DNA of 64,000 bases from Paludibacteraceae bacterium (GTDB lineage: Bacteria > Bacteroidota > Bacteroidia > Bacteroidales > Paludibacteraceae), in the NCBI GenBank assembly GCA_017556705.1, contig JAFYMG010000001.1, forward strand, positions 62,001 through 126,000, read 5' to 3'. The first letter of the stretch is position 1. The number at the start of each line of letters is the position of its first letter. The notes beneath the pieces are model-generated. The model was not told the DNA's origin. It worked only from the letters and a program-made list of their open reading frames with translations, and searched no databases. This document shows, in pieces, positions 6,735-53,459 of this stretch. A program made the position numbers and the translations under genes.

Positions 6735-8126
6735 GTGCTTTTCAAGGAATACCTACCATACTATAAACGCAATCTTAAGGTTGCTCTGCCAGTGATGCTT
6801 ACCCAACTAGGAGCATCGCTGGTTGGTTTATTTGATTCGATCATGGTAGGGCATTATGCCACAGTGGATTTAGCTGCTGTAAGTTTCTCCAACGCATTGT
6901 TTTTTACCGTCATGGTATTTGCTATGGGAGCGTTGATGGGACTCACACCACTAATTGGCATTCAGGTGGGCAAAATGTCGGACCAAACAGATAGCTCGAA
7001 TGATAGCTCAATACTTGCAGAGAGTAAAAGCATCATCTCTTCACTATTTCAAAATGGTATGCTGTTTACCATTCTGTTGAGTATTATGACGCTTGTTCTA
7101 TTAGGCGGATGCATTCCATTCTTGCATTGCTTTGGACAAGATTCTGCTGTGGTGGAGGTGGCTCGACCTTATTTCATTCTGATAGTGATATCCATTATTC
7201 CGTTTTTATTTTTCACCTTCTTCAAACAGTTTTTAGAGGGATTAGGAAATACTTCTGTTGCGATGGTTATCACATTAGTGATGAATGGACTAAATATATT
7301 CCTTAATTGGTTGTTTATTTATGGCAATTTGGGTTGCCCAGAACTAGGAGCCACAGGTGCTGGTATTGGTTCGCTGATAGCCCGTATAGGAATGCCAATT
7401 TGTTTCTGTGGAGTGATATATTTTCGCCGCGAGTGGAGAGAGTATATGACTGCTATGCGTTTTAGCACTTTTAAAGCAAGTGTGATCAAGGAGCTCACGA
7501 AAATTGGATTACCTATCGGTGTGCAAACACTCATGGAGACGATTGCTTTTACCGCAGCTTTTATCTTTATCGGTTGGATCAGCAAAGAGGCGTTAGCTGC
7601 GCACCAAATAGCCAATCAGATTTGTGATATGACATTCATGGTTATTTTGGGAATAGGTTCAGCCACTACAATTAGAGTCTCTCACCAATTAGGTGCAAAT
7701 AATCTCCAAGGAGTGAGAATGGCCAGTAATGCAAGTATTCATTTAGTACTGTTTATCAATACGATAGGTGCGATTCTTATGATAGGATTTAGAAACCAAA
7801 TCCCTATGCTATTTACCGAAGATCCAGAGGTGATAACGATTGCGTCTAAATTGGTAGTATTGGCAGGAGTATTGCAGTTAGCCGATGGCCTTCAAGTTGT
7901 AGCCGCCTCGATGTTGCGAGGTATTACGGATGTGAAGGTGCCTATGTTGATTGCTATGTTCTCCTATACGATTGTATGCATCTCTATCGGTCTATTTTTA
8001 GCATTCCCAATGGGTATGGGTGCTGTGGGCATATGGATAGGTTTTGTAGTGGGGTTGTCTGTAGCTGCGATTTGTTTGCATGTTCGCTTCGGTAGAAAAT
8101 TCAAACAACTATCCCACAATAAATAG
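6735..8126 (+). CDS. MATE family multidrug/toxin efflux protein
   Basis: An inner-membrane Na+- or H+-coupled exporter of 463 residues with about twelve hydrophobic segments in two halves. The N-terminus 'YKRNLKVALPVMLTQLGASLVGLFDSIMVGH' region is the classic MATE opening (shown here in part as LPVMLTQLG and DSIMVG), and 'AAHQIANQI' begins the second half. No ATG precedes the conserved opening, so GTG 6735 is used; there is no visible Shine-Dalgarno. The substrate cannot be inferred. It follows the metal cluster but need not belong to it. Confidence 0.88.
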   Translation: MLFKEYLPYYKRNLKVALPVMLTQLGASLVGLFDSIMVGHYATVDLAAVSFSNALFFTVMVFAMGALMGLTPLIGIQVGKMSDQTDSSNDSSILAESKSIISSLFQNGMLFTILLSIMTLVLLGGCIPFLHCFGQDSAVVEVARPYFILIVISIIPFLFFTFFKQFLEGLGNTSVAMVITLVMNGLNIFLNWLFIYGNLGCPELGATGAGIGSLIARIGMPICFCGVIYFRREWREYMTAMRFSTFKASVIKELTKIGLPIGVQTLMETIAFTAAFIFIGWISKEALAAHQIANQICDMTFMVILGIGSATTIRVSHQLGANNLQGVRMASNASIHLVLFINTIGAILMIGFRNQIPMLFTEDPEVITIASKLVVLAGVLQLADGLQVVAASMLRGITDVKVPMLIAMFSYTIVCISIGLFLAFPMGMGAVGIWIGFVVGLSVAAICLHVRFGRKFKQLSHNK

Positions 8127-46898: not shown

Positions 46899-46973
46899 GG
46901 TCCTGTAGCTCAGTTGGTTAGTAGCACCTGACTCATAATCAGGGGGTCCTTGGTTCAAGCCCAAGCAGGACCA
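46899..46973 (+). tRNA. tRNA with anticodon CAT (elongator Met, or Ile2)
   Basis: Acceptor stem GGTCCTG / CAGGACC with discriminator A; anticodon arm CCTGA-CTCATAA-TCAGG; T arm with GGTTCAAGCC. CCA is not encoded. The D arm reads GCTC AGTTGGTTAG TAGC, so the last D-stem pair is C-T and the D loop is one base longer than usual. CAT could be elongator Met or lysidine-modified Ile2; Met is preferred but not proven. Confidence 0.9.
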
Positions 46974-46981
46974 CAAACAAA

Positions 46982-47017
46982 AAATCATCCAAGCCTTTGG
47001 ATGATTTTTTCTTTTTA
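46982..47017. terminator. Bidirectional rho-independent terminator
   Basis: An 11-bp perfect stem AAATCATCCAA / TTGGATGATTT with loop GCCT. T-runs follow on both strands, so it ends the tRNA transcript (+) and any minus-strand transcript from the right. Before the element at 47020-53076 inserted, the minus-strand transcript would have been the tmRNA. Confidence 0.88.
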
Positions 47018-47019
47018 TC

Positions 47020-47027
47020 AGTGGAGA
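47020..47027 (+). other. Left attachment site core (attL)
   Basis: AGTGGAGA, identical to 53069-53076. On the minus strand it reads TCTCCACT, the last bases of the tmRNA plus discriminator. Confidence 0.65.
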
Positions 47028-47110
47028 CTATTATCAAATTCTCGAACTCCTTTATACAAGACTTATTACAAGTCTATGAGTTCGCAGAAAAGAATAGTGC
47101 TCGTTTATAA
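47028..47110 (+). other. Detached 3' end of the large serine recombinase gene
   Basis: Read in the phase of the recombinase gene after joining the octamer copies, this stretch gives 27 codons ('TIIKFSNSFIQDLLQVYEF' and seven more) and a TAA at 47108-47110. It has no start of its own. It would be the recombinase C-terminus in the circular form. Chance is possible, since an open stretch of 27 codons is not rare in AT-rich DNA, but the helix-like composition and the match with the predicted attachment site favour it. Confidence 0.6.
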
Positions 47111-47118
47111 TTGCGGTA

Positions 47119-47126
47119 CAAAGGTA
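47119..47126 (-). promoter_or_regulatory. Minus-strand -7 box at the left end of the element
   Basis: TACCTTTG on the minus strand after AAAAGCAG. The transcript would run towards the attachment site and stop at 46982-47017 in the integrated state. In the circular form it would run antisense into the recombinase gene. Confidence 0.55.
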
Positions 47127-47165
47127 CTGCTTTTCTGTTAAATATACAAATTTTCTGTACTTTTT

Positions 47166-47197: not shown

Positions 47198-47204
47198 CAG
47201 AGCA

Positions 47205-47432
47205 ATTCCAAAGTATTGGTTTGCAGACATAATTATTAACAGCATTAGCTATTATTTCGCGTTCAAAGAAAAAAGCCTAGGAAACTATTTTCTCTGAAAG
47301 GAATAGTATTGCGTTATGGGATTTCTATGCCCTATCACCACTCGTTTGCATGTTAGGTGTGAACTGATGAGTGGTGGCAGGTTTCTTCCTAGGCTTCCTG
47401 TGAACGCGAAAAGGTTCGCACCTTTTTATTAT
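47205..47432 (+). ncRNA. Unidentified structured RNA, or single-strand origin
   Basis: A nested structure is closed by perfect stems: TTCGCGTTCA (47256-47265) with TGAACGCGAA (47401-47410), then AAGCCTAGGAA (47273-47283) with TTCCTAGGCTT (47386-47396). Inside lie ACTATT/AATAGT (47284-47307) and a terminal arm CACCACTC/GAGTGGTG (47336-47343 / 47369-47376) extended by GTTTGCA/TGTGAAC. A terminator-like hairpin AAAGGT-TCGC-ACCTTT follows at about 47411-47428. A promoter lies upstream and no convincing frame crosses it. The form recalls 6S RNA only loosely, as the bubble is lopsided. Because the element has a rolling-circle Rep, it may instead be a complementary-strand origin. Confidence 0.6.
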
Positions 47433-47472
47433 TCTTTTAAGATTGATAGCATTGCACATAAGTCTATCAATC

Positions 47473-48474
47473 ATGAATTTATCGTATTCCGTAGTTATCC
47501 GAACATTGGGAAACACAGGTGCAAAGTATCAAGCACTATTGCAATCTATTGAGTCACAAACTATTCAGCCTGAAGAAATTATTGTTGCTATTCCTCATGG
47601 TTATGAATTAGATTACCAATTAGGAATAGAACGTATTGTCCATTGCGAGAAAGGAATGGTAATGCAACGTGCGATAGGTATCGCTGAAGCCAAATCGGAA
47701 TATATCCTAATTTGCGATGACGATATTCAGTTTGCTCCTAACATGGTAGAGGAGTTGTATAAATATCTCTTACGAAACAACTTGAATTGTTGTTTACCAA
47801 TGGAAGGGAAAGATGATAAATGGAATACCGATCATTTGGATTTGAAATATCCATTAACAACACGTCTAAGAGGTAGGTTTACAGGACAAATGCTTACAGG
47901 TTATGGTAAGTCAAAGTATTTAGATGTACTGACATATACAGCAGGACATAAAGTTTATGTCAATAGTAATAAGTTAGATGAATGTTATTTATGTACAACA
48001 GCATGTTTTCAATGCTTTTTTATAAATACAGAATTAGCGAAGGCTGCACATTATGAGGAGGAAAAATGGTTACAAGAAGGTTCTTTGACTTCTTATGCTG
48101 CGTATGATGAACCTGTTTTCTTTAGCAAACTAAAATTATTAGGATTACGCATGGCATATGCATTAAGAGTCCGTTATCAACATCTTGACGCAGGAGTAGG
48201 ACGTAAAGCTGTTGACAAAATTGAGGCAAAGAAAATAAGGTATTTCTCTATTTCACGTAATCGTACAATCTATTGGTACAAATATATTTATTCTACAGCT
48301 CCAACATTTGGAAAGAAATGTTTGGCATTAATAGGGGGCATTTATGGATTGACAAATTATGCTTTGCTCACAATTATAATTAATGTTTTAAGACCAAAGT
48401 ATATTCATTCTCTAACAGCATTATTCAAAGGTTATAAAGAGGCTTTGGAGTATATACGCTCTATAAAGAAATAG
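47473..48474 (+). CDS. Family 2 (GT-A) glycosyltransferase carried by the element
   Basis: 333 residues from ATG 47473. The N-terminal GT-A domain reads 'SYSVVIRTLGNTGAKYQALL', 'QTIQPEEIIVAI' and the metal-binding 'YILICDDDIQFAPNM' (near residue 80). A C-terminal hydrophobic segment ('LIGGIYGLTNYALLTIIINVL') suggests membrane attachment. Cysteines are frequent in the middle. Codon use is AT-rich, like the rest of the element and unlike host genes. It could alter a surface glycan, as in phage-encoded glycosyltransferases; that is inference. It sits directly after the structured RNA and is closed by a terminator. Confidence 0.8.
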   Translation: MNLSYSVVIRTLGNTGAKYQALLQSIESQTIQPEEIIVAIPHGYELDYQLGIERIVHCEKGMVMQRAIGIAEAKSEYILICDDDIQFAPNMVEELYKYLLRNNLNCCLPMEGKDDKWNTDHLDLKYPLTTRLRGRFTGQMLTGYGKSKYLDVLTYTAGHKVYVNSNKLDECYLCTTACFQCFFINTELAKAAHYEEEKWLQEGSLTSYAAYDEPVFFSKLKLLGLRMAYALRVRYQHLDAGVGRKAVDKIEAKKIRYFSISRNRTIYWYKYIYSTAPTFGKKCLALIGGIYGLTNYALLTIIINVLRPKYIHSLTALFKGYKEALEYIRSIKK

Positions 48475-48788: not shown

Positions 48789-48968
48789 ATGAAAAGACAA
48801 TTTAGACAATTAGACCAAGAAACGAAAGAGAAAATAAGCCGCAGCAGTAAGGGTAAGATAAAGTCGGACTTGCACAAACAACACATCAGCCAATCCATGC
48901 GTAAGTATTGGTCACAGATACCAAACAAACCTACCGACATTAGCATGGATGAATTTCTTGGTAAGTAA
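48789..48968 (+). CDS. Small basic NUMOD3-like protein (59 residues)
   Basis: An ATG at 48789 opens 59 codons to TAA 48966-48968. 'ETKEKISRSSKGKIKSDLHK' followed by 'QHISQSMRKYWSQ' resembles two NUMOD3-type DNA-binding repeats found in homing nucleases and in small proteins of mobile elements. The charge is strongly positive. It lies 69 bases before rep and probably shares its transcript. A role in DNA binding at the origin or in regulation is a guess. Confidence 0.55.
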   Translation: MKRQFRQLDQETKEKISRSSKGKIKSDLHKQHISQSMRKYWSQIPNKPTDISMDEFLGK

Positions 48969-49037: not shown

Positions 49038-50018
49038 TTGAAAAAAGTGATAAAATTAGATAAGCTAAAAATAGTAACAAATGAAAATTATATAATAGAT
49101 ATAGACCCCAATATATTTACAACTATAATCAAAAATGGTCAAATAGTAGAATATAGGTATGAGCAACAAGTCCCCTATTTGTTATACATAGAAAAAGACA
49201 TTGTTAAACAAGAATTAGTCATTGAATTTTCGGGCAAGATATTGGAAGATAAATACCCATTGCTTATAAACAAAGATACGATTAAAATATGTTTAGATAA
49301 CATCAATAAGTTAGCTATCTGTCATATCAATGTTCCAGAGGTACTGCAAAATTCAGTTGTAGTCAAGGCGGACGTTTCACATGATATTTGCTGCGGTAGT
49401 TACCAGCAACTTATAAGTACCTTAAAAACATCTGTTAAGAACCATAACAAATACCTATCACGGGTCATTCATGGCACATTTGTAATAGAAAAGAATGTTG
49501 TTAGTAGAAGTAGGAAAGTGCGCATGACCATATATGACAAAGCAGCAGAGATGCAACTCAAAGCCAATCAAGAGTATCTTGACCGATTAAGTAACAGGGA
49601 TGAGTTGGCAGAATATTTCAAAGATAGAGTTCGGTTTGAACTCAATCTCAATTCGATGGAACAGATACGAAAACACCTCAATATCCATGATACGATGTTA
49701 TACAATGTATTACATGCTGAAGCCAATCCAATAGTAGAGTTTATAGATAAAGCATTTGTATTAGAAGACCCAGCGCCAATAGATATGAAGTTACGAGATA
49801 TAGAGAGGTTGGCTTTGTTGGAAAGCGTAGATAGAGATGTAACCAAACTTGAAATGATAGTGCGTAAGCATAGCTCGCCAAAATCACACATCAGCCAACT
49901 CATGCAACCATATCGCAACCTACTAAAGACCATAGAACAAAAGGGCGAGAACTATCTACTATCCATTCGTAATGTATTATTAGTAGAGATATTTTTAGCC
50001 TTTATTGTATCAATATAA
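49038..50018 (+). CDS. Phage/plasmid replication protein, pII/X (rolling-circle) family
   Basis: 326 residues. The start is TTG 49038, fixed by a strong Shine-Dalgarno AAGGAGAG at 49022-49029, unlike the SD-poor host genes. 'VVVKADVSHDI', 'VSRSRKVRMTIYDKAAEMQL' and 'FKDRVRFELNLNSMEQIRKHL' follow the pattern of the gpII/gpX replication initiators of filamentous phages and related plasmids (D-rich strand, YDK, then RFEL). These nick one strand and start rolling-circle replication. It suggests that the element can replicate after excision. The family call rests on motifs only. Confidence 0.7.
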   Translation: MKKVIKLDKLKIVTNENYIIDIDPNIFTTIIKNGQIVEYRYEQQVPYLLYIEKDIVKQELVIEFSGKILEDKYPLLINKDTIKICLDNINKLAICHINVPEVLQNSVVVKADVSHDICCGSYQQLISTLKTSVKNHNKYLSRVIHGTFVIEKNVVSRSRKVRMTIYDKAAEMQLKANQEYLDRLSNRDELAEYFKDRVRFELNLNSMEQIRKHLNIHDTMLYNVLHAEANPIVEFIDKAFVLEDPAPIDMKLRDIERLALLESVDRDVTKLEMIVRKHSSPKSHISQLMQPYRNLLKTIEQKGENYLLSIRNVLLVEIFLAFIVSI

Positions 50019-50104
50019 ATATGATACTTTTTAATCTTATAATAGTATAGAAATACCAAGTAATAGTGTATGATAATAACCTAAAAGATTGTTTTCATAC
50101 ATTA

Positions 50105-50410
50105 TTACCAAGGGATATCCAGTAATGTTTTCTTATATTCTTTTTCCAATTCTTCAATTGAATTAAAGCGTATAAGCTCATTCCCTATATATGCAATGCC
50201 ATCTACTCTCCTGCTTTCACGAAATAGATTTGCAACAGGGACTTCCAGCGCATCAGCAATTTTAATGATAGTGTCAAGTTGGGGGTTGCCATGCAGGGCT
50301 CGAGCCAGACTTGCAGGTTTAATACCAATCTTCTTTGCTAACTCCGCCTTGCTAATGTCTCGTTCTTCACAATAGAATTTGACATTTCGTGCAAAATCAT
50401 GTATAGTCAT
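50105..50410 (-). CDS. XRE family HTH repressor
   Basis: 101 residues from ATG 50410, where 'TIHDFARNVKFYCEERDISK' begins; the longer frame to 50488 would run through its own promoter. The HTH is 'ISKAELAKKIGIKPASLARAL'. The C-terminal part 'VDGIAYIGNELIRFNSIEEL' is short. It is divergent from the resolvase gene, so it may govern both promoters in the 190-base gap, as phage-type repressors do. Confidence 0.85.
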   Translation of the reverse strand: MTIHDFARNVKFYCEERDISKAELAKKIGIKPASLARALHGNPQLDTIIKIADALEVPVANLFRESRRVDGIAYIGNELIRFNSIEELEKEYKKTLLDIPW

Positions 50411-50426
50411 AATATCAAAATTTTTG

Positions 50427-50434
50427 CAAAGGTA
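50427..50434 (-). promoter_or_regulatory. -7 box of the XRE gene
   Basis: TACCTTTG on the minus strand, 17 bases before the ATG. Confidence 0.72.
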
Positions 50435-50526
50435 ATCAAAATAAATCAAACCAACAAGAAAAATTTGATTAAATTCTAATAAAATCATATTTTATTTACT
50501 TAAATTCTAATTTTATTGCATAAAAA

Positions 50527-50600: not shown

Positions 50601-51224
50601 ATGAAGAAGGTTTGTATTTACGCAAGAGTTAGCACCCAAGGACAGGACTATCAACGTCAGTTAAGTGAATTACGAGAGTACGCAAGTCGCATGAACTACG
50701 AAGTTGTGAAAGAGTTCAGCGAAAAGATAAGTGGAGCAAAATCGGTGGCAGAACGTCAAGCATTGACCGAATTATTGGACTACGCTGCGGCAAATCGCAT
50801 TGACAAACTGCTTGTGTATGAGTGTTCAAGAATTAGTCGTAGAGCGATTGATTTTCTTCAGGTAATAGAACAACTCACGCAAATGAAAGTGAGCGTATAT
50901 ATCCTTCAAAATGGGTTAGAGACGCTTATGGCTGATGGTTCTGTAAACCCCATAGCCCAGTTGGTTCTTGGTATAATTGGTCAATTTAATTCGATGGAAC
51001 GAAGTCTAATTCGTAGTCGTATGTCCAGTGGTTACCAACATTTCCGCAGCAATGGTGGTAAAGTGGGTAGAAAAGAGGGGTACAAGAAGTCTAATGAGCA
51101 AATGAAAGAGCAATATAGCAAAGAATTATCCTTGCTCAAAAAAGGGTTGTCGCTGCGGAACATACAAGCCATAACAGGTACCAGTGTCAATACACTTCGA
51201 AAACTAAAAGTCATTATATCTTGA
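50601..51224 (+). CDS. Small serine recombinase (resolvase/invertase family)
   Basis: 207 residues. The catalytic Ser is in 'CIYARVSTQGQDYQRQL' (Ser11), with 'LLVYECSRISRRAIDFLQVIE' and 'GIIGQFNSMERSLIRSRM' (E helix) behind it and a C-terminal HTH ('KGLSLRNIQAITGTSVNTLRK'). Such proteins resolve multimers or invert DNA. It has its own promoter and lies between the repressor and the large recombinase. In a replicating circular form it could resolve dimers. Possible crossover sites would be the dyads at 51365-51400. Confidence 0.92.
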   Translation: MKKVCIYARVSTQGQDYQRQLSELREYASRMNYEVVKEFSEKISGAKSVAERQALTELLDYAAANRIDKLLVYECSRISRRAIDFLQVIEQLTQMKVSVYILQNGLETLMADGSVNPIAQLVLGIIGQFNSMERSLIRSRMSSGYQHFRSNGGKVGRKEGYKKSNEQMKEQYSKELSLLKKGLSLRNIQAITGTSVNTLRKLKVIIS

Positions 51225-51409: not shown

Positions 51410-51589
51410 ATGTTAGATATAAAAAAGTACAAAGAAGATTTTGATAAGTTAGGTATATATGACGAACAAGAACAATTGGAAATATTAAACTCATTATTGC
51501 AACTTGCAATTATAACACAAAATAACTACAACAATATATATCAAGATAGTGATGACAAAGCCAATAGTACCATACAACAAGTTAGATAA
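51410..51589 (+). CDS. Small protein upstream of the large recombinase (59 residues)
   Basis: From ATG 51410 (AAAAGG just before it) the frame gives 'LDIKKYKEDFDKLGIYDEQE' and on to 'QLAIITQNNYNNIYQD', helical and acidic, ending 38 bases inside the recombinase gene in another frame. Small proteins in this place are common before large serine recombinases in Bacteroidota; a part in recombination direction is possible but not shown by sequence. Confidence 0.6.
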   Translation: MLDIKKYKEDFDKLGIYDEQEQLEILNSLLQLAIITQNNYNNIYQDSDDKANSTIQQVR

Positions 51590-53195
51590 GAGAGTAGCAG
51601 CACTATGGACACGAGTGTCAAGCCAAGACCAATTCAATAAGAACTGCTCATTAGAAACGCAACGAGAAATATGCGAGAGATATGCTCAAGCACATAACAT
51701 AACCATCAAAGAGTATTTTGGTGGTACATTTGAAAGTGCTAAAAGCGAAGGTAAATTATATCAAGAAATGATAAATAAAGTGGCTCGTGATAGAGAGATA
51801 AATGTTATACTTGTTCATTCCTTTGATAGGTTTAGTCGTGCAGGAGATGAAGCCATTGCCACCAAAGCATATCTTAAATCAAAAGGGATATACGTAGTAT
51901 CGGCAACACAAGCTACCGATCCAGACACCGCAGCGGGCGAGTTAATGGAAAATTTGCTATTCCTATTCAATAAGTTTGAGAATCAAATGCGTCGTTCTAA
52001 AACCTATGGTGGCACTATTGCAAGCCTTCAGCGTGGAGATTATTGTTTGCCTTGTCCACTTGGATATAACCGACACAAAGATGGCAAGAAATTGGTAATG
52101 GAAATCAACGATGATGGGCGTATTTTACGCAATGCTTGGGCATGGAGAGCGCAAGGAATAAACGAGATAGATATATGTCATAAACTCAATGCTATGGGCT
52201 TAAATGTCAAATATAAACGTCTCAACCAAATACTGAAGAATCCTATTTATTGTGGATATATTGTACACGATAAGCTAGAGGGTGGTCGGGTCAAAGGAAA
52301 CTTTGAACCACTAATAGATGAAGAAACTTTCAATATTGCAAATGGATTTGGACATGTAGGATATGTCAAACAGAAAGTAAATGAACTATATCCACTCTGC
52401 GGTCATGTGAGATGCGCTGATTGTGGTTGCAAATTAACTGCGTATGAAGCGAAGAAGAAACATATACACTACTACAAATGCAGTACCAAACATTGCAAGA
52501 ACAATAAAAGTCTCAAGATTATGCACATGCTATATACGGAGTTCCTCAAAAGATTTCAACTTAAACCCGAATTAGTCCCATTGTTTCAAAAAGTCATAAA
52601 GTTGGAATTAGGACATTTCAATGAGGAGCAAGACAAGGAAATAAAAACTATCAAGGCAAATAAAACCGAGGTAGAAAATAAGATAAAGAAAGTACAAGTT
52701 AGATGGGGATTAGGAGAGATAAGTCAAGATATTTATGATACTACTATCGGAACATTACAAACAGAACTATACAAAATCAACACTCAGTTGAATAGTTATT
52801 CTAAAAAGTTGTCGAACCTTGATAATATAGCACATAGTGTTAGTGTTATTGCCTCAAAATTAGGGAGTTTATGGGAAAATAGCAATTACGAAGATAGGGT
52901 TAAACTACAAAATTTGCTATTCCCTGAAGGGATTTTGTGGGATAAGGTTAAAGAAAATTATCGAACCATGAAAATCAACAAGGTGTTTGAAGTAATATCC
53001 TTATTACCAAATATTTACAATGATAAAAAAGAAAGAAACGATAATGAAAGTGCTTCATTATCGCCTCAAGTGGAGATAGCGGGATTCGAACCCGCGTCCA
53101 AACAAGGAACCAATATGCTTTCTACACGCTTATCTTGGCCTTCATTTTCGAGCAATAGCAAGACCCAAGCCACCAACCATTGCCTTATCTGCTAA
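51552..53195 (+). CDS. Large serine recombinase (integrase), C-terminus supplied by host ssrA
   Basis: 547 residues from ATG 51552 (GTG 51549 also possible). The resolvase domain has 'ALWTRVSSQDQFNKN' (catalytic Ser23), then 'ILVHSFDRFSRAGDEA'; a recombinase domain ('CLPCPLGYNRHKDGKK', 'LNQILKNPIYCGY'), a zinc ribbon ('CGHVRCADCGCKLT...YYKCSTKHC') and a coiled coil (~360-430) follow. It integrates and excises the element. From residue 507 on the frame runs into the antisense strand of the tmRNA ('VEIAGFEPASKQGTNMLSTR'), so the last 41 residues are host-derived. In the circle, the frame would continue at 47028 and end at 47110. Confidence 0.92.
   Translation: MTKPIVPYNKLDKRVAALWTRVSSQDQFNKNCSLETQREICERYAQAHNITIKEYFGGTFESAKSEGKLYQEMINKVARDREINVILVHSFDRFSRAGDEAIATKAYLKSKGIYVVSATQATDPDTAAGELMENLLFLFNKFENQMRRSKTYGGTIASLQRGDYCLPCPLGYNRHKDGKKLVMEINDDGRILRNAWAWRAQGINEIDICHKLNAMGLNVKYKRLNQILKNPIYCGYIVHDKLEGGRVKGNFEPLIDEETFNIANGFGHVGYVKQKVNELYPLCGHVRCADCGCKLTAYEAKKKHIHYYKCSTKHCKNNKSLKIMHMLYTEFLKRFQLKPELVPLFQKVIKLELGHFNEEQDKEIKTIKANKTEVENKIKKVQVRWGLGEISQDIYDTTIGTLQTELYKINTQLNSYSKKLSNLDNIAHSVSVIASKLGSLWENSNYEDRVKLQNLLFPEGILWDKVKENYRTMKINKVFEVISLLPNIYNDKKERNDNESASLSPQVEIAGFEPASKQGTNMLSTRLSWPSFSSNSKTQATNHCLIC
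53069..53076 (+). other. Right attachment site core (attR) at the tmRNA 3' end
   Basis: AGTGGAGA; its last five bases form the end of the tmRNA acceptor stem. Identical to 47020-47027. Confidence 0.65.
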
Positions 53196-53459
53196 AATCT
53201 CATTTCTGCATCGCAGCCTACAGAAACCAGCCCTGATATTTCCGCACCGCTTGATCCTATCAGCCTCTGGGCGTTGGCTTGGAGCGATGTCTCGGTTCAG
53301 CACCTTGTGCCGAAACTAGGCGAATCTACTATACTTCGATTACGCAGCGAGAGCTACAGTATTGTTGCCAGCTATAATGGCGAACCCGATTAACGAGCGG
53401 TATTCATGCTCGGCGTGCTTACATACCTGTTCTACCTGCTGTCAAAACCAAATATCCCC
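53072..53459 (-). ncRNA. ssrA: tmRNA (SsrA)
   Basis: Transfer-messenger RNA that rescues stalled ribosomes. The 5' end GGGGATATTTGGTTTTGACA and the 3' end with GGGTTCGAATCCCGC-TATCTCC form the tRNA-like part; the acceptor stem pairs GGGGATA with TATCTCC (one G-T pair). The tag frame is at 53340-53369 and reads GNNTVALAA-stop, close to the GETNYALAA-type tags of Bacteroides. CCA is not encoded. Its natural terminator is not adjacent: the element inserted at the 3' end. The promoter is at 53479-53510. Confidence 0.95.
53340..53369 (-). other. tmRNA tag reading frame
   Basis: GGC AAC AAT ACT GTA GCT CTC GCT GCG TAA, giving GNNTVALAA. The ALAA end is the ClpXP/ClpAP signal. The exact resume codon (GGC, or GCT before it) is inferred from family practice. 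Confidence 0.8.

Follow-up and report, generated by a model that had tools for sequence, protein, structure and literature searches.

A large serine recombinase (LSR) gene that reads out of a mobile element and into the neighbouring host RNA gene raises the question of where the enzyme really ends, and whether integration itself changes that end. Such a gene lies at 51552-53195 (plus strand) of the 64-kb stretch of DNA analysed here, called the window, which comes from a gut bacterium of the Bacteroidales with a genome of 2.0 Mb and Paludibacteraceae MAGs as near relatives. A preliminary description had proposed that integration swaps the C-terminus of the integrase between a circle form and a host form. 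We found this proposal strongly supported by a circle-form tail that is conserved, in frame and under selection, and we regard the anatomy of the element and the C-terminal swap, as reconstructed below, as almost certainly correct.

Judged by its sequence, the segment 47020-53076 (6.05 kb) is an integrated small mobile element carrying a Rep, a repressor, a small serine recombinase, the LSR and cargo. On the plus strand it encodes a cargo glycosyltransferase of family 2 (47443-48474, Pfam PF00535, likely start ATG 47473), a small protein with a weak match to a homing endonuclease DNA-binding region (48789-48968; PHROG 314, E 1e-4), a replication protein of the Phage_CRI / G2P type (49038-50018; Pfam PF05144, PHROG 702) and a small serine recombinase of 207 aa (50601-51224, Pfam PF00239), which the relatives possess as well (elements L091, L101 and L102). 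The minus strand carries a Cro/C1-type repressor (50105-50488) identified by Pfam and weakly RstR-like, with an NCBIfam score below cut-off. The presence of a filamentous-phage-type Rep beside this repressor (49038-50488) suggests a replicon related to inovirus satellites. Related elements measure 3.9 to 8.4 kb; those read through contain a Rep-like protein, a small serine recombinase (~207-222 residues) and varied cargo, with a repressor in several and no recognised structural phage genes, and the element type looks like a small integrating replicon. The phage, plasmid and viral collections searched held no close relatives and no circular copy of the element. The glycosyltransferase cargo and its leader (47200-48369) are 98-100% identical between the window element and that of the related genome G533, the backbones being ~80-85% identical; a second copy of the cargo is present in G533 (L179 and L180), and it looks like a recently exchanged cassette. 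Nested inverted repeats precede the glycosyltransferase (47255-47411; arms of 17 and 11 nt, 102-123 nt apart), and no Rfam match to a non-coding RNA was found in this leader.

The LSR has the domains of a serine integrase in their usual order (catalytic PF00239, Recombinase PF07508, zinc-ribbon PF13408), all above cut-off, and against NCBIfam CcrB it scores 60.7 bits, the cut-off being 900. Across 28 relatives, S24 does not vary, nor does the TRVS around it. We folded the integrated-state protein with AF2 in its natural sequence form. After the zinc ribbon the model shows the long coiled-coil-type helices of large serine recombinases (residues 340-387 and 393-416), and it matches the structures of the SPbeta-like, Bxb1 and phiC31 integrases (9dxd, 9iu2, 9rah) along the full modelled LSR with probability 1.0, at ~13-17% identity and with the tail beyond residue 495 lacking a counterpart. 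The body of the model extends to about residue 495; everything after it has a pLDDT below 50 and is predicted to be disordered. This remainder holds the sequence that the host supplies: the frame (51549/51552-53195) is element-encoded up to the core at 53069 and host-derived past it, where 41 codons (53070-53192) are antisense to ssrA. The overlap of the frame with the 3' end of the tmRNA gene, and its 41 residues, thus stand as first described, with ssrA placed on the minus strand at 53070-53459 by both ARAGORN and Rfam and left intact by the insertion.

The proposed attachment core, AGTGGAGA, does occur at 47020-47027 and at 53069-53076 (both plus strand), the latter at the ssrA 3' end, but the window holds a third copy at 7432. 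Chance alone predicts 1.4 copies, and at least 3 appeared in 16 of 100 shuffled sequences. The repeat was therefore rejected as sufficient proof of att sites, 8 bp being at chance level in 64 kb, and the left boundary needed independent proof. This came from G533, in which contig C55 (L028) carries an LSR 85% identical to that of the window and contig C52 (L179) the left end of an element of the same type, with the tail VESSIQFSNTFIEDLLKVYEFAEKNSHYL; we infer that the two contigs are parts of one element. Left of the core, window and L179 agree at 17 of 40 bases; right of it, over the helix codons, they agree at 68 of 87. This collapse of identity, together with the homologous tails of 14 other elements, confirms by sequence comparison that the element begins at 47020. 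To the left lie a host tRNA-Met (46899-46974, plus strand; ARAGORN and Rfam) and a hairpin with T-runs on both strands (46978-47013; -16.2 kcal/mol, z -4.8), placed as are the native terminators left of the relatives' elements. The hairpin is probably the native terminator of ssrA (and of tRNA-Met), and the element now stands between it and ssrA.

When 53076 is joined to 47028, the predicted circle junction reads CCTCA-AGTGGAGA-CTATTATC, and the LSR frame continues, as anticipated, through 47107 to a stop at 47108-47110 (47021-47107 being 29 codons counted from the core), giving the tail VETIIKFSNSFIQDLLQVYEFAEKN. On the joined frame, the homologous tails and the codon substitution pattern, we read 47021-47110 (plus strand) as the orphaned 3' end of the LSR gene, consisting of the conserved C-terminal helix codons VETIIKFSNSFIQDLLQVYEFAEKNSARL and the stop; it would be fused to the LSR only in the circle, and its first ~27 nt would double as an attP arm. 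Right after this stop, a hairpin with a T-run (47113-47134, plus strand; -9.6 kcal/mol, z -3.7) is likely the terminator of the circle-form LSR transcript. In L179 this hairpin shows no conservation. Between window and G533 the helix codons are 79% identical, within the 77-88% of the LSR and unlike the cargo beside them; the segment thus keeps pace in divergence with the LSR, a gene that it adjoins only in the circle. Over the same codons the two differ at a pS of 0.66 and a pN of 0.14.

We located left ends for 14 further elements, and all of the joined tails are homologous, one element being decayed. Short direct repeats gave the left ends of L102 (= L069), L101 (= L070) and L109 (= L066), then of L082, L095 and L100; joined at the core, the LSR frame of the relatives continues into tails such as VEKSIKLSNDFFRDLLKIDKFINE, VEKTIRISNDFFRDLAKIGAFLEEF and SRSISDSRTFLEDLNRIEEFYQEF. 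A profile built from seven tails, which made no use of the core, then added a further five left ends (L091, L093, L094, L096 and L085), among which L085 has a decayed LSR and is not in frame across the core. In the intact elements tested, the frame was open through the core in 11 of 11. A scan blind to the helix, using only the core, a terminator on the left flank and an open frame, gave a single match each for the window, L102 and L094, in each case the left end already known. It added L092, L081 (another family, at tRNA-Ala) and L138 (another family, at tRNA-Leu caa), each of which has the helix; because these three were required to be in frame, they are a test of the helix and not of the frame. 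With a profile of all 15 tails the true left ends score an iE of 1e-7 or better and the next match 0.1, a gap that mainly reflects the absence of lookalikes since the profile was built from the same tails. Several of the longest direct repeats were dropped as chance matches, as joined frame, terminator and helix disagreed with them. For the group at tRNA-Arg, -Met, -Ser and -Phe, left ends were not found within ~18 kb (the candidates for L142 and L146 are weak), so the helix is established for part of the family.

On joining at the core, the host-derived tail gives way to an amphipathic helix that is homologous between elements, SNxFFxDL / YRTFIDxL, attached by a linker and with a high hydrophobic moment in most cases. 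The helix-like composition first noticed in the joined tail thus corresponds to a conserved feature of homologous elements, and when homologous C-termini are compared with both versions of the tail it is the circle version that they match. The extreme C-termini vary (ARL, IFK, LGK, LDV, FRK, HSR, HHQ) and have no ssrA-like ending, while conservation sits in the interior of the helix. These variable ends bear on the idea that integration removes a degradation tag, as it does from the BPs repressor, and so lets the integrated copy yield a more stable protein. An attP within a gene is indeed the geometry of BPs-type phages (PMC4557955), but the variability of the ends, and a conservation that lies in the helix interior, make this reading very improbable.

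The codon pattern speaks to a simpler possibility, that the conserved left end is mere attP DNA or a separate peptide and that the joined frame is open by chance. The first nine tail codons are conserved at synonymous sites too, which this possibility would explain and which is also expected of an attP arm. Past codon 9, amino acids are retained while synonymous sites are near saturation, and this holds in the fused frame alone: over four independent pairs, codons 10 to end have a pS of 0.69 and a pN of 0.20 (Fisher 6e-11), and the other two frames give p of 0.34 and 0.89. Differences between the L094 and L096 tails fall 5/0/11 at codon positions 1/2/3. The helix as a separate small protein was rejected, since it lacks a conserved start codon and its frame is that of the LSR across the core. 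Provided that the left ends are aligned correctly, the 11 of 11 in-frame count and the codon test refute this possibility, to which we leave next to no probability. Purifying selection at the protein level on the circle-form helix, in the fused frame only, is thus strongly supported by these comparisons. Given this selection, the helix and the predicted disorder of the host tail, the circle form carries the protein end that selection maintains, and the host form has lost it.

We also looked at how widespread this arrangement is. The relatives of the LSR are mostly found at genes other than ssrA, namely at tRNA-Pro (cgg or tgg), -Leu, -Ala, -Arg, -Met, -Ser and -Val. Where an RNA gene was identified at a sampled locus, the LSR frame almost always enters it antisense. 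The resulting host tails are 3 to ~100 residues long, in differing reading frames, and are not conserved. A class-wide search found a relative of the LSR in 97 of 395 Bacteroidia genomes, and in 36 of 40 high-scoring loci drawn from it the frame runs into an antisense tRNA or tmRNA; the architecture is therefore widespread and not the accident of a single insertion.

Empty sites agree with the predicted boundaries. A query of joined flanks from L101 gave an uninterrupted 97% match across the join in three genomes (G059, G021 and G028), and matches of lower identity in many others. In ten empty sites read directly, the core GTCGAGAAG stands before tRNA-Pro in all ten, with a native hairpin ahead in most. 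The flanks of the tRNA-Pro relatives thus meet at the core and not elsewhere, an outcome on which the proposal could have failed. Site-specific integration at a short shared core follows from the empty and occupied tRNA-Pro sites, and at ssrA from the left end of the sister element. An empty ssrA site was sought in the genus through the conserved neighbours pta and a GH57-like gene and was not found, the gene order being scrambled; both genes, which flank ssrA in the window, have other locations in almost every congener.

In occupied sites the native hairpin remains with the left core, and another hairpin with a T-run, carried by the element, precedes the right core. In the window it lies at 53035-53067 on the minus strand (-16.6 kcal/mol, z -5.9), antisense within the last LSR codons, and the same arrangement was present in 29 of 29 distinct loci checked, window included (-12.5 to -24.4 kcal/mol, z -4.0 to -10.7). 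From its position and fold, this element-borne terminator is predicted to take over from the one that the invaded tRNA or ssrA gene had natively. It has no T-run on the LSR strand, and therefore the LSR transcript would not be expected to end there. A single stretch of DNA carries integrase codons on one strand and, on the opposite one, the terminator of a tRNA gene.

The explanation that we favour as a whole, and consider reasonably probable, combines these features: an attP inside the 3' end of the element's own LSR gene, the swap, the new terminator and a latch. Sequence comparison shows that in the circle the LSR ends in the linker-attached conserved amphipathic helix. Insertion at the 3' end of ssrA, or of a tRNA in relatives, severs the helix codons and gives an unconserved antisense host tail in exchange, and the last LSR codons provide the invaded RNA gene with a new terminator. 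The attP x attB reaction would require the helix or be tuned by it, and losing the helix upon insertion would act as a latch: the integrated copy could no longer make the integrating enzyme, and integration would therefore be favoured. That the helix serves integration and its loss locks the insertion is, from the sequence data, a proposition that we hold evenly poised. In its favour, C-terminal additions can set the direction of a serine integrase, as in RDF fusions (PMC5737554). The weak point of the latch is excision, which would have to depend on the small recombinase as a partner, on some other factor, or on full-length enzyme supplied in trans from a circle, as has been proposed for archaeal suicidal integrases (PMC8371274). 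Also counting against it, the LSR core is still intact in most integrated copies, suggesting that the integrated-state enzyme may still serve or simply that mobility is frequent.

These open genes also fit a passive reading, in which an attP within the integrase gene merely keeps site, enzyme and terminator together as a compact module, the helix is ordinary and the swap has no regulatory role, the integrated copy being silent or adequately active. The overlap would then be explained in part by the terminator needed by the invaded gene. Because phiC31 integrase can do without its last 21 residues (PMC5737554), which counts against the latch as well, we keep this reading as unlikely but still to be reckoned with. 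On the other side, the conservation of the helix under selection implies that the enzyme does not lose it without consequence, and an attP placed after the stop codon would have preserved a short constant tail. The intact LSR would likewise be accounted for if the helix blocked attL x attR and the host form, lacking it, were competent for excision and acted as an excisionase. Protein contacts do hold serine integrases in integration mode and C-terminal fusions can flip them (PMC5737554), but integration would then reverse itself unless expression were shut off, and we regard this switch of direction as improbable. Returning to the latch, the design, which recurs across related bacteria, may act as a built-in one-way switch. 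More tentatively, and a little short of an even chance in our estimate, many small elements at tRNA and ssrA genes in Bacteroidia would control directionality by swapping an integrase helix for a host antisense-tRNA tail on insertion, forming a bacterial serine counterpart of the self-splitting integrases.

The closest precedent is found in the ssrA-specific islands of Dehalococcoides (McMurdie 2011, PMC3146451), where the frame of dsiB, a serine recombinase of ~540 residues, overlaps attL and ssrA with no stop within the island, next to dsiA, a PinR-like serine recombinase of 200 residues. Both systems have an LSR frame over att and ssrA and a small serine recombinase upstream, and the authors of that work considered, as one option, that dsiB is fully functional perhaps only in the circle. 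The kind is therefore not wholly new. The Dehalococcoides islands insert in the ssrA T-loop, at ssrA only and with a 20-bp repeat, whereas the window element uses the ssrA 3' end with a core of 8 bp, and its family occupies many tRNAs with cores of 4-16 bp; a conserved circle-form tail and an antisense terminator, both found here, are unreported for dsiB. As far as the open-licence literature searched shows, the comparative evidence, the many tRNA targets, the helix and the antisense terminator are new.

Other known systems share single features. In the integration-dependent immunity of mycobacteriophage BPs, attP lies inside a gene and integration alters a protein C-terminus and the life cycle (PMC4557955). 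The LSR shows this same geometry, with the difference that BPs uses a tyrosine integrase and removes an ssrA-like degradation tag from its repressor, whereas here the serine integrase itself loses an untagged helix. An att site within the integrase gene is also shared with the archaeal suicidal integrases (SSV1 and pTN3 type), in which integration disrupts the gene and which have been called exclusively archaeal (PMC8371274). Those are tyrosine recombinases whose catalytic domain is cut off; the bacterial serine LSR of the window keeps its catalytic domain and loses only ~25-30 C-terminal residues. In the serine integrase-RDF fusions of Olorunniji 2017, a C-terminal addition changes the direction of the reaction (PMC5737554), but these are artificial, contain a whole RDF and are uncoupled from integration, to which the swap described here is tied.

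The unidirectionality and release of serine integrases are an open question of large practical use. Each integration appears to be a natural C-terminal swap experiment, performed in many related elements, and since left and right ends are known for many of them, the same enzyme can be compared directly in two defined forms. For annotation, database LSRs with tails resembling GFEPP or VEKRRLERPT carry antisense tRNA and not their true C-terminus.

Two further loci bear traces of insertion history. By the ssrA gene of G057 (contig C33, L077), ~41 bp resemble the right end of the element, hairpin included, with no full LSR, and are probably the scar of a lost or decayed element. In G068 (contig C51, 59.5-62.6 kb, L074), two LSR genes stand in tandem, the copy by tRNA-Pro being frameshifted, possibly as a result of successive insertions.
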